Source: Pseudomonadota bacterium
GTDB lineage: Bacteria > Campylobacterota > Campylobacteria > Campylobacterales > Sulfurospirillaceae
NCBI GenBank assembly: GCA_017860615.1
Contig: JAGDMU010000004.1
Span: 62,001 to 126,000 of the forward strand
Length of the DNA: 64,000 nt
Reading direction: 5' to 3'
Under the pieces are notes generated by a model. It was not told the DNA's origin, did not search any database, and saw only the letters and a list, made by a program, of their open reading frames with translations. The first letter of the stretch is position 1, and each line of letters opens with the position of its first letter. A program made the position numbers and the translations under genes. Positions 1-4,854 of this stretch are shown in pieces.

Positions 1-616
1 TGCTTCGATCGTATGCAGCTGGGAGTGGATAGTGCATGAGCATCAAATTTATCTTATTTCTATCAATCTGCGTATCAGTCTCAACCATAAAATTCACCGC
101 TGGTGCAAGGTCTATCATCCAGTCAAAGTCCTCGCCGCTGTGATCCGCCCAATAGTTCCATACACGTTGATCGGCGCGGTATCCCATCTGTTTTAAATGC
201 TCGTTTATGGCTTCATGCTTATCATATGTTATACCAAACTGTCTTTGAAATTTATTTCCAAGAGTGCCGTACTGACCGCTTCTAACCTGAAATCGACCAG
301 CTTTTTCTATCACGATGACTCTTGCACCTTTTTCACTAGCAGCGCGCGCAGCATGGAGCCCAGAGGCGCCAGCACCGATGATAAGCACATCAGTATCAAG
401 TGTCTCTTTGATCTCTTTTTCTGAAATTTGTGGCTCAGTACCGAGCCACTTTGGCACCTCAGGTCCTTTTGAGACCTCCTTTTTTGGAGGGATAAGGTGG
501 TTGTTTGGGTTTTCACAGCCTGTTAGCAGTGCCGATCCGGCTGCAACCGAACCAAGTGTGAGCACACCACTACGCTTTAAAAATGTGCGGCGTGATAATT
601 CATTTTCTTCTATCAT
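1..616 (-). CDS. Tat-exported FAD-dependent fumarate-reductase-like flavoprotein (N-terminal part)
   Basis: The reading frame is open from ATG at 616 to the window edge (205 codons), so the C-terminus is missing and the ORF track omits it. The N-terminus has a twin-arginine motif (LSRRTFLKR), a hydrophobic stretch and a lipobox-like LLTGC near residue 32, suggesting a Tat-exported, possibly lipid-anchored protein. At about residue 77 comes DVLIIGAGASG, the dinucleotide-binding start of an FAD domain, followed by an acidic strand end (VIVIEK). This is the layout of periplasmic fumarate, urocanate or methacrylate reductase flavoproteins. The substrate cannot be told because the catalytic half lies outside the window. 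It is followed upstream by a porin on the same strand, which may supply the substrate. Confidence 0.8.
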   Translation of the reverse strand, partial: MIEENELSRRTFLKRSGVLTLGSVAAGSALLTGCENPNNHLIPPKKEVSKGPEVPKWLGTEPQISEKEIKETLDTDVLIIGAGASGLHAARAASEKGARVIVIEKAGRFQVRSGQYGTLGNKFQRQFGITYDKHEAINEHLKQMGYRADQRVWNYWADHSGEDFDWMIDLAPAVNFMVETDTQIDRNKINLMLMHYPLPAAYDRS

Positions 617-638
617 TTTATACTCCTTTCTTAAAATT

Positions 639-2069
639 TTATTTTAATATGTCAAAGTCATAAGATACTCTTAGCCAAAGCTCCTCGTCTGTCGTTTTGC
701 CATCAGAGCCACCGCTAGTGTATTTTAGTTTTCTATCCAAAGTTTCATAAATAGCAGATACCTTTAAGCCTTTGACCGCAGGGACTTTGTAGGTAACTTG
801 TGTATCCCATCCCTCTACATCTATCCTTGTGCCAGGTGCTTGACCATGCAAACCGCCTGAGCGGACGTTGCTGCCGTTATGTTGCTCGCCATACCAGTAG
901 TCAGCATCTAGCCTAAGCCCCTTCACGCCTACATTGCTAAGATCGTAGCCTGCGCTAAGCTTATGTAACTCCATACCCGCAAAGGACATAAACAAAAATG
1001 GACCATAAATCGGAGTGGCTGTAAATGCCCCACAATCGTTGCCTATGCCTTGAAGTGCGGTTTGATTTTTGCTAACAGTTGAGTATGCGTATCCAAAATC
1101 AAAGCCATAAGCGTTATAAAGTCCCACCATGCCTGTGTAGAAGTCGCCATTAAAGTCATAATTCTCTTTTAAAGTGTCGGTTGTTCTTGAACCTTTATAC
1201 ATAGCGTTTATGCCAACCACTGCATTTTCAAAAAGCGCAGGCGTTTTGTAGCCAGCTGCTGCAAAGTAAAAGTTTATATCACCCTTTGAATTAGCGTCAT
1301 ATTCGAGACCCGATATATTTGCGTAAGCAGCCGTGAGCGAGACGCTTGGAACTCCATTATATGTTACAAATGAGTTAAAGATGTTATCAAATTTATAAGC
1401 ATAAGGTCCAAAGCCACCGATGATAACTTTATCTTTAAATTCTGGTGCACCATCATCGCTGGATACGCCTGTTACAGCATTTGATCTACCGGCAAATTTC
1501 CAAAAGTCAGCCAAACCAATAACAGTATCCATACTATCAAGCTTTATCCGAGTGCTCACGCCCTCAAATGCCTCTTTGTAGCCTACATCTGTGTTTGTAG
1601 CAACAAGTGGTGGTACGAGTCCAGTGTATTTTGAGTTGTAGTACTGACGACCGATTTTAAGGTCAATGAAGTCACGTTTGTATTCTAGATAAGCTTCTGA
1701 TAATGCTGCACCTTCGCTATTCCAGTCGTATGCGAAATAATCTTTTGCATCACTTGATGGAGCAAAATTTGCTAAGCCCTGAGCTGTAAGACCTATCCTA
1801 AAATCATTGTAAAAACCAGTCAAAAATCTGAGTTCACCGCCAATGCCACTGATATGTTGGCGATTTCTATTTGTTGCGCTAGCTGGTGGAAAGTACTCAG
1901 TTGAGTCCATATCATAGTATGTAAATACAGTTCCACTCATCTTACTTGCTTGCAGGGCCTCTGCAAGGCTATCGCTAGCATTTACGCTACAGAATCCAGT
2001 AGCCATAAGTGTAGCTAAACTAAGAGCAAGCTTACCCTTGCCTTTTGTCAAAAAACATGTTAACATCAT
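639..2069 (-). CDS. Outer-membrane porin of the Opr/OprD type
   Basis: A 476-residue protein with an N-terminal signal peptide ending near LMATGFCSVNAS, followed by many alternating aromatic and polar beta-strand segments and a C-terminal strand ending YDFDILK. This is the style of Campylobacterota Opr-family porins, which pass small organic acids and peptides across the outer membrane. Two ATG codons lie in tandem at 2069 and 2066 and either could be used. It lies 22 bp upstream of the flavoprotein gene on the same strand, so the two are probably co-transcribed, and it is divergent from a two-component system that may control it. Family assignment rests on overall pattern, not on a single motif. 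Confidence 0.75.
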   Translation of the reverse strand: MMLTCFLTKGKGKLALSLATLMATGFCSVNASDSLAEALQASKMSGTVFTYYDMDSTEYFPPASATNRNRQHISGIGGELRFLTGFYNDFRIGLTAQGLANFAPSSDAKDYFAYDWNSEGAALSEAYLEYKRDFIDLKIGRQYYNSKYTGLVPPLVATNTDVGYKEAFEGVSTRIKLDSMDTVIGLADFWKFAGRSNAVTGVSSDDGAPEFKDKVIIGGFGPYAYKFDNIFNSFVTYNGVPSVSLTAAYANISGLEYDANSKGDINFYFAAAGYKTPALFENAVVGINAMYKGSRTTDTLKENYDFNGDFYTGMVGLYNAYGFDFGYAYSTVSKNQTALQGIGNDCGAFTATPIYGPFLFMSFAGMELHKLSAGYDLSNVGVKGLRLDADYWYGEQHNGSNVRSGGLHGQAPGTRIDVEGWDTQVTYKVPAVKGLKVSAIYETLDRKLKYTSGGSDGKTTDEELWLRVSYDFDILK

Positions 2070-2294
2070 AAACCTTTTTAATTTTTTTTGGGCACATTTT
2101 GCAAGAGAGCCGTAAGCTCAGTTTGTTTAATAATGCCACTTGTTTTGAAGCCCGGTGCAACGGGCTATCATTATGAGCGCCAAAGATCAATACCGCGTTA
2201 CGAAAAATTTTACCCCCTTAACTTTTGATATCCTCCTTAGATTTATTAACAAGACTTAGAATTTTAACGCGTAGGTTTATTAAAAACGGCAAGA

Positions 2295-2430
2295 TTTTGG
2301 TAACATTTCTAAAAATATTTTTTTAGCTTTAAATTTTTAGAATTTGATAAGTTTTGGTAACATTTTGGTAACATTTTGGTAACATTTCTAAAAATATTTT
2401 TTTAGTTTTAAATTTTTATAATTTGATAAG
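2295..2430. repeat. 57-bp direct repeat (two copies, 79 bp apart)
   Basis: Copies at 2295-2351 and 2374-2430 each begin TTTTGGTAACATTTCTAAAA and end AATTTGATAAG, with only two differences seen by eye (C/T and G/T). The 79-bp offset means the promoter-proximal region was tandemly duplicated recently. The same locus carries a coding duplication just downstream. Confidence 0.85.
2352..2384. promoter_or_regulatory. Three perfect tandem 11-bp repeats, probable regulator-binding sites
   Basis: TTTTGGTAACA occurs at 2352-2362, 2363-2373 and 2374-2384 without gaps, with a further copy at 2295-2305 and a degenerate one (TTTTGGTATAA) at 2432-2442 overlapping the -10 box. An 11-bp period places each site on the same helix face, as is common for OmpR-family regulators. 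The neighbouring OmpR-type regulator is the obvious candidate to bind here; this is inference. Confidence 0.6.
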
Positions 2431-2437
2431 ATTTTGG

Positions 2438-2443
2438 TATAAT
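2438..2443 (+). promoter_or_regulatory. -10 box of the response-regulator gene
   Basis: TATAAT sits only 8 bp before the ATG at 2452, so transcription would begin almost at the start codon. Together with the absence of a Shine-Dalgarno sequence this predicts a leaderless or near-leaderless mRNA. Confidence 0.5.
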
Positions 2444-2451
2444 TACTACGT

Positions 2452-2745
2452 ATGATAGAAATTTTACGTATAGAAGACGATCTTGATTTGGCTGAGCTTT
2501 TAAAATATGCTTTGGCAAAAAGTGAGATTGGCGTAACGATAGCCACAAATCCACTTGAAGGACTTAAAATTTTAAACGAAAAAAATACCTTCGATACTAT
2601 GATAGAAATTTTACTTATAGAAGACGATCTTGATCTGGCTGAGCTTTTAAAATATGCTTTGGCAAAAAGTGAGATTGGCGTAACGATAGCCACAAATCCG
2701 CTTGAAGGACTTAACATTTTAAACGAAAAAAGTACCTTCGATGCA
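2452..2745 (+). repeat. 147-bp in-frame tandem duplication inside the regulator gene
   Basis: Units 2452-2598 and 2599-2745 code for near-identical 49-residue segments and differ at only about seven bases by eye. The unit length is a multiple of three, so the frame is kept. Confidence 0.9.
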
Positions 2746-3270
2746 TTGGTGCTTGATCTGGGCTTGCCCGATATGGACGGTCTTGAAGTATGCAAAAATG
2801 TTAGGCGGACCTATCCGTCGCTACCTATAATTATATCATCGGCTCGCACTGAGACACTAGATAAGATAAAAGGGTTTGAGCTTGGGGCAGATGATTATGT
2901 GACAAAGCCGTATGAGCCCATAGAACTTGCTTTTAGGCTAAGGTCCATATTACGCCGAGGGATACTGGTTAGCAATGACTCCAAAACTTTTTTAGTCGAT
3001 AAACAAAGACGTATCATTATAAAGAATAAAGAGGAAATAGAACCAACAAAATTGGAATTTGATATTTTTATCTACCTTTATGAAAAAGAGGGAATAGTTA
3101 TACCAAGAGAAGATATTTTGATACATTTGGGTCAGTCAAAATTTCAAAGCGGACTAAAAAGTATTGATGTAGCTATAGGGCGCCTACGCCAAAAAATTGG
3201 AGATGATCCTCAAAATCCACGCTTTATTCACTCTGTGCGCGGTATAGGGTATAAATTTATCAATGCGTAG
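2452..3270 (+). CDS. OmpR-family response regulator with duplicated receiver N-terminus
   Basis: The 272-residue protein begins with a 49-residue segment (MIEILRIEDDLDLAELL...) repeated almost exactly at residues 50-98. The second copy continues into a complete receiver domain with the acidic pair (EDD), the phospho-acceptor in LVLDLGLPDMDG and the lysine in VTKPYEP. A winged-helix DNA-binding domain follows (about 180-272, ending RGIGYKF). The first copy stops before the phospho-acceptor and cannot be a working receiver alone. No ribosome-binding site precedes either ATG (2452 or 2599), so the start is uncertain; 2599 would give a normal 223-residue regulator. It overlaps the sensor kinase gene by 8 bp. 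Confidence 0.85.
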   Translation: MIEILRIEDDLDLAELLKYALAKSEIGVTIATNPLEGLKILNEKNTFDTMIEILLIEDDLDLAELLKYALAKSEIGVTIATNPLEGLNILNEKSTFDALVLDLGLPDMDGLEVCKNVRRTYPSLPIIISSARTETLDKIKGFELGADDYVTKPYEPIELAFRLRSILRRGILVSNDSKTFLVDKQRRIIIKNKEEIEPTKLEFDIFIYLYEKEGIVIPREDILIHLGQSKFQSGLKSIDVAIGRLRQKIGDDPQNPRFIHSVRGIGYKFINA

Positions 3271-4534
3271 TATATCTATAGTCAAATTAATATCATTTTT
3301 CTTTTTTGCAGCTCTAATTATAGTAAATTCGGCATTTTTTATCGAATCCGATAGACAAATAAGAGATGCGGAGTACTTTACTTACCAGCGCTTTATGTTA
3401 GGTATGCGCATACGCGGACAAGAAGACGGCAATATAACTCAACAGCTAGAGCAAATCGGACTTAAAGACAGCAGCCTTAACCCTAGTGAGATTAGGCAAA
3501 ACGGTGAGAAAATTTTTAGCGATTCATATGCTGATATGATAAGATACAATAAAAAGTTTTATTTTGTGCCTAGATTTTTTTCTGTAGATCCTGAAATGCT
3601 ATCTCAAATTATGGCTGCGGCAGGGCTTGCCCCATCAAGAAGTAGTATCATTAGGAACGGGGTGCCTTTAGAAAATTTAAAAGAACTCTCTTCACATAGA
3701 ATTTGGATACTTTGGTTTGTCGTAAATATCGTAATGACGGCTTTTTTTATAGCCGTTTTAAGAAAGCTGCTAAAACTTAGAAATTTAAAAAATTTGATAA
3801 GAGAAGCAGGAGAACAAGATAAACTTAAACCGATAAAAATAGAAGCAACTGATGAAATAGGCCAAATCGCCAGCGAATTTAATGCGACAATGCAAAAAAT
3901 AAATACAATAAAGGAAGCCAGAGCAGTATTTTTACGCAATATTTTGCACGAATTTCGCAACCCGATAATGAAGGGGCGGATTATGGCGGACATGATAGCT
4001 GAGCTCTTACAAGATGATAAATTTAAAAATATATTAAAACAAATTTTTATACGACTTGAAATAATATTGGGCGAAGTCGTCAAGGTAGAAAAACTTGTAT
4101 CCAATGAATGGGGACTTGAAAAAAATAAACACCGAGTCATAGATATCATTGATCACTCAATAGATCTACTTTTATTAAAAGATACGAGTCGCATAGAAGT
4201 GCGAGCGGACAACGAAATAAGTGCGGTAGAGGTTGATTTTGAACTTTACACAACTGGCGTTAAAAATTTAATTGACAATGCTTTAAAATACTCTAGTGGC
4301 AAAGTTCTTGTAAGCATAGATAAAAATACGGTCTGCATAAGTAGCATAGGAGATAAGCTTGAGGCAGAAAGACTTGATTTTGAAAGGGCTTTTAACAGAA
4401 AGGTAGAGGCGTCAAATTCAGGGCTGGGTCTTGGACTTTATATAGCAAATCAAATTTTTAAAAAACATGGTCATACCTTAAAATACAAGTACGAAGATGG
4501 TAAAAATAATTTTCTGATTTATTCCATAAATTAA
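3263..4534 (+). CDS. Membrane sensor histidine kinase (ArsS-like)
   Basis: A 423-residue kinase partnering the regulator just upstream. It has a transmembrane segment at residues 5-25, a periplasmic sensing region, a second membrane helix (ILWFVVNIVMTAFFIAVL, about 149-167), a HAMP-like linker, an H-box FLRNILHEFRNPIMKG with the phosphorylated His, an N-box (NLIDNALKYSSG) and a G2 box (GLGLGLYIA). The H-box wording resembles the ArsS-type kinases common in Campylobacterota. The canonical G1 DxGxG is not obvious (SSIGDKL). Codons are rich in ATA and AAA, unlike genes after 4.8 kb. The signal is unknown; control of the porin and flavoprotein genes is likely from position. Confidence 0.8.
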   Translation: MRSISIVKLISFFFFAALIIVNSAFFIESDRQIRDAEYFTYQRFMLGMRIRGQEDGNITQQLEQIGLKDSSLNPSEIRQNGEKIFSDSYADMIRYNKKFYFVPRFFSVDPEMLSQIMAAAGLAPSRSSIIRNGVPLENLKELSSHRIWILWFVVNIVMTAFFIAVLRKLLKLRNLKNLIREAGEQDKLKPIKIEATDEIGQIASEFNATMQKINTIKEARAVFLRNILHEFRNPIMKGRIMADMIAELLQDDKFKNILKQIFIRLEIILGEVVKVEKLVSNEWGLEKNKHRVIDIIDHSIDLLLLKDTSRIEVRADNEISAVEVDFELYTTGVKNLIDNALKYSSGKVLVSIDKNTVCISSIGDKLEAERLDFERAFNRKVEASNSGLGLGLYIANQIFKKHGHTLKYKYEDGKNNFLIYSIN

Positions 4535-4854
4535 TTTTAAAAAAGGATTGTTTTTATTACAGCAGCTTTGGGCGATACAGCTAAAATTAATAACTATATA
4601 ATGCGAGCCGAAATTCCAAAAAACTGATTTAAGACATTGTAAGCAAAAAGGCTCAAGCTAAACTTTTAACCTTACCCACTCCGCCCTTTTCTCTTTCTTA
4701 TTCTCCTTGAAAGCATACCAACTTTTACATGTAAAACGCTCGTAAACAATAATGTCAATTTTGTCGGTGAAATTTTGCAGAAAAGAAAGGCTACGCTTTG
4801 GAGAATGTTTTACATGTAAAAGCACGCTCTTGCACCGTAGCCTTTTTGAAGAAT
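4535..4854. other. Gene-free interval with palindromes and a long inverted repeat
   Basis: 320 bp without a credible ORF. It contains two copies of the 14-bp palindrome TTTTACATGTAAAA (4733-4746 and 4808-4821) and an inverted repeat AAAGGCTACG (about 4786-4795) / CGTAGCCTTT (about 4836-4845) enclosing the second palindrome. On the minus strand the distal arm is followed by CTTTTC, so it could end transcription of the leftward metal operon. It also marks a change in codon and base usage between flanking genes. Confidence 0.55.

Follow-up and report, generated by a model that had tools for sequence, protein, structure and literature searches.

Tandem duplication of a receiver N-terminus in an OmpR-type response regulator, probably translated from a leaderless first start codon

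Positions 1-4642 of the window, the whole stretch of 64,000 nucleotides analysed here, belong to a cassette of about 6.6 kb that continues beyond the window edge. It carries genes for a NapC/NirT-like multihaem cytochrome, a Tat-signal FAD flavoprotein of the flavocytochrome c/fumarate reductase type and a porin-like protein, together with a divergent regulator and an ArsS-family kinase. The features of this region are collected in Table 1.

Table 1. Features of the regulator locus and its surroundings in the window.
Feature	Position	Strand	Basis
Tat-signal FAD flavoprotein, N-terminal part; gene continues beyond the window edge	2..616	-	
Porin-like outer-membrane protein gene, divergent, same cassette	639..2069	-	Weak Opr porin match, below cut-off
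79-bp promoter/operator tandem duplication (2288-2355 vs 2367-2434, 93%)	2288..2445	+	One copy in single-unit orthologues
TTTTGGTAACA x3.3, 11-bp period; likely OmpR-type direct-repeat operator (predicted), expanded from orthologue GGTAAGATTTTGGTAACA	2352..2387	+	
TATAAT -10 box (ggTATAAT), 8 nt before the first ATG; leaderless-start signature	2438..2443	+	Criterion of PMC3847290
OmpR/PhoB-type response regulator gene, 272 aa, extra N-terminal unit	2452..3270	+	ORF; Pfam Response_reg (PF00072) 53-160 and Trans_reg_C (PF00486) 194-269
Unit 1: extra beta1-alpha1-beta2-alpha2, 49 codons, MIEILRIEDD...TFDT, without phospho-acceptor	2452..2598	+	Repeat calls, codon comparison, predicted secondary structure
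Unit 2: N-terminal part of the complete receiver; equals the start of single-unit orthologues	2599..2745	+	Orthologue alignments, AlphaFold2
ArsS-family sensor histidine kinase, overlapping the regulator stop	3263..4534	+	NCBIfam NF038389, 355 bits vs cut-off 250

The regulator gene begins with two adjacent copies of the same segment. Tandem Repeats Finder and a further repeat finder both return a 147-bp period in two copies of 96-97% identity, free of indels, at 2451-2742, and a codon-by-codon comparison counts seven differences in 147 bases, five of them in residue-changing codons. Each copy opens with an ATG and both lie in the single open frame of the gene; an in-phase 147-bp tandem repeat with 96% identity is far beyond chance. 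A preliminary description of this DNA had proposed an in-frame duplication of the receiver N-terminus as two 49-codon units that differ at about seven bases and both start from ATG, and the agreement of both repeat finders with the codon comparison bears this out. It had also stated that the first unit lacks the phospho-acceptor, which is correct, since the acceptor, Asp102, comes after unit 2. Acidic residues are present in unit 1, which ends before the strand with the acceptor and has a predicted secondary structure of E3-7 H11-23 E27-31 H34-44. The Pfam receiver match starts within unit 2, leaving unit 1 outside, and is followed by the winged-helix output domain; D58, D102 and K152 are invariant in a 43-sequence alignment.

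The same duplication is found, with substitutions of its own and 96% DNA identity, in a single-contig genome (G020) from another species of the same, probably Sulfurospirillum-like, genus as the window genome (G000). Exactly two units are present in each of the two species, and both genomes have the same four sites that set one unit apart from the other, at unit positions 102, 134, 145 and 147, the last two of which are part of the duplication junction. These common sites show that the duplication occurred before the two cassette copies diverged and rule out the recent event implied when it was first called fresh; judged from the sequence comparison, the duplication is old and real, with no sequencing error behind it. 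The worry raised at the same time, that the second unit might be an artefact of assembly, could appeal to the draft state of the window genome (31 contigs), but an independent single-contig genome with the same two units and its own substitutions rules this out as far as sequence can, and we regard the chance of an artefact as negligible.

A single unit is present in five orthologues of family f11 (G157, G383, G232, G076 and G084; regulator DNA 83-87% identical), which we infer to be Campylobacter-like, and in these the upstream region runs straight into a start that resembles unit 2. By this comparison one unit is the ancestral state. A 98-aa query covering both units found a full-length match in just two of the 397 genomes sampled from the class, so that a wider family of two-unit regulators is rejected for this sample. 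A scan of the whole collection of named genomes returned only distant single-unit regulators (best 44%), plasmid records gave no match, and the matches listed from a Foldseek search against the PDB were only ordinary OmpR-type regulators and receivers. No described case of a duplicated receiver N-terminus was found in the literature searched, the coverage of which is incomplete.

Between the two genomes the cassette (window 1-4642 and L125:5077-11643) is 96.8% identical, as compared with 82% and 78% in two other chromosomal segments where these could be aligned, and this difference points to horizontal movement. The flanks of the cassette differ between the two genomes, and a resolvase gene adjoins it in G020 (L117:11132-11545). 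Most likely the cassette moved horizontally and the duplication was carried along with it. Just beyond one cassette end in the window, a 101-bp stretch (4720-4820) is 78% like a sequence near the other end in G020 (L117:10992-11078); it is possibly a relic of a moving element.

A second expansion lies upstream of the regulator. The single-unit orthologues contain GGTAAGATTTTGGTAACATT, a pair of half-sites 11 bp apart of which the second lies 61-62 bp before the ATG, and GGTAA repeats with 11-bp spacing are found upstream of the regulator in the window as well as in the orthologues. OmpR/PhoB-type regulators bind direct repeats with a spacing of about 11 bp. An extra 11 bp in the window, AGATTTTGGTA, is operator-derived and sits beside the -10 box. 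Elsewhere in the genome the operator-like pattern was found solely upstream of a 65% paralogue (contig 27), and a reversed control pattern also gave three matches in the genome. The case for the predicted operator, which we consider likely, is made by its position and conservation, as a match count proves nothing by itself.

Leaderless genes of Epsilonproteobacteria have been scored by the pattern gnTAnaAT-N5-9-ATG without a ribosome-binding site (PMC3847290). The first ATG of the regulator (ATG1) has this leaderless pattern, as ggTATAAT-N8-ATG without a Shine-Dalgarno sequence. Among 25 homologue rows counted (G020, aligned at the second ATG, and L004, masked, were left out), 24 carry a -10 box, TATAAT or in one case TATACT, whose end lies 5-7 nt ahead of the ATG; the exception (L020, 46% identity) has its box at 33 nt. 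The spacing of 8 nt in the window compares with 5-7 nt in these homologues and lies within the published range of 5-9 (PMC3847290). Short Shine-Dalgarno-like tetramers are found near the ATG in three homologues (L003, L006 and L127), so that not every homologue lacks them. At the second ATG (ATG2), no -10-like hexamer was found closer than 28 nt and no Shine-Dalgarno sequence in the preceding 18 nt. Because the conserved leaderless-start signal sits at ATG1 only, ATG1 is favoured over ATG2, and translation from ATG1 into the full 272-aa product is likely.

The preliminary description had offered either an extended protein or a start at the second ATG; the former is the one favoured here. A start at ATG2 would yield an ordinary regulator of 223 aa and leave unit 1 as an untranslated or separately initiated leader, a reading that would suit the match of unit 2 onward to all orthologues from the first residue and the faster change of unit 1 than of unit 2 between the two species. 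However, ATG2 has no -10 box within 9 nt, besides having no Shine-Dalgarno sequence, and the frame of unit 1 has stayed open, in phase and indel-free in the two species, in contrast to the several indels of the intergenic region next to it, so that we consider a start at ATG2 unlikely. With a start at ATG1 the gene would resemble the leaderless mRNAs of Epsilonproteobacteria (PMC3847290) in its pattern, in having no Shine-Dalgarno sequence and in the retention of the pattern in nearly all homologues examined; it differs from them in that the first ATG now heads a duplicated coding unit. In a leaderless gene with a 5' duplication, the start signal would stay at the first copy, so that the copy joins the protein and does not become a leader.

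Since the two cassette copies diverged, unit 1 has undergone six changes (four of them amino-acid-changing), unit 2 one, and the remaining 522 bp eleven. The window copy of unit 1 carries Leu6Arg in beta1. The excess of changes in unit 1 is no more than suggestive, since it does not reach significance (Fisher p = 0.12), and unit 1 is too short for dN/dS to decide constraint. For unit 2 plus the rest, dN/dS between the two genomes has stayed at about 0.29 since the duplication (about 0.5 for the porin and the flavoprotein), so that the regulator is still constrained. The kinase has 27 nonsynonymous vs 5 synonymous changes between the same genomes (dN/dS 1.4), compared with a dN/dS of 0.11-0.15 against the Campylobacter-like copies, and the paired kinase looks to be under relaxed constraint.

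In the AlphaFold2 prediction a full receiver is built from unit 2 (pLDDT 93-97) and unit 1 forms a beta-alpha-beta-alpha fold of its own (block pLDDT 71-87), with a pTM of 0.57 overall that makes the relative placement of unit 1 and the receiver uncertain; in the alignment used (43 sequences) the non-query rows are single-unit and aligned to unit 2, which biases the model toward a unit 2 receiver. A functional half-receiver, changing dimerisation, kinase binding, autoinhibition or, jointly with the expanded operator, the promoter response, would be consistent with this predicted folding, with a frame kept in two species with no indels and with the expansion of the same gene's operator in the same lineage. 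The drift of unit 1, including Leu6Arg in the beta1 core, its presence in 2 of 397 sampled class genomes and the apparent relaxed constraint on the system seen in the kinase argue against such a role, which we hold to be quite improbable; it is more likely that unit 1 is tolerated, and drifting, than that it is useful. More speculative by far is a putative fold-exchange or domain-swap switch, in which the beta1-alpha1-beta2-alpha2 copies of this phosphorylation-controlled transcription factor would compete for one receiver position, or exchange in it within and between monomers. The engineered alternate-frame-folding switches (e.g. PMC5844902) are similar in that two copies of a terminal segment could compete for one place in the fold, but the present regulator is natural and not designed, its copies are adjacent at one end, and one static model gives no evidence of two folds.

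Our preferred explanation, to which we assign a probability of roughly two in three (0.68), is a tolerated duplication on a mobile cassette, with a leaderless start at ATG1 and a 272-aa regulator bearing an N-terminal half-receiver appendage. In this account an illegitimate tandem duplication in the past copied 147 bp, beginning about 3 nt ahead of the start codon and reaching codon 48, in a response regulator gene that had a single receiver and lay on a horizontally mobile electron-transport cassette. With the 5' end of the leaderless mRNA at the first ATG, ribosomes would start there and produce the 272-aa protein, of which unit 2 and the rest would fold as an ordinary phosphorylatable OmpR-type regulator, while unit 1 would persist as the tolerated, slowly drifting appendage. 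The locus is an interesting natural variant of modest importance and a natural test, kept in two species, of how far a receiver domain tolerates partial duplication, the extended product being likely from the leaderless start.

Like other OmpR/PhoB-family regulators, the protein has in residues 50-272 a complete receiver (acidic pair, acceptor Asp102, Lys152) and a winged-helix output domain; unlike them, it begins with a further 49 residues in which beta1-alpha1-beta2-alpha2 is repeated. With the ArsRS-type two-component systems of Campylobacterota it shares an overlapping gene pair and a paired kinase above the ArsS family cut-off, but the pair in the window lies on a mobile porin/flavoprotein/cytochrome cassette and its regulator has a duplicated unit in two species. 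Among the single-unit orthologues, the regulator of G383 (L119:8110-8776) is apparently frame-shifted after about codon 120, tblastn giving two pieces in different frames.
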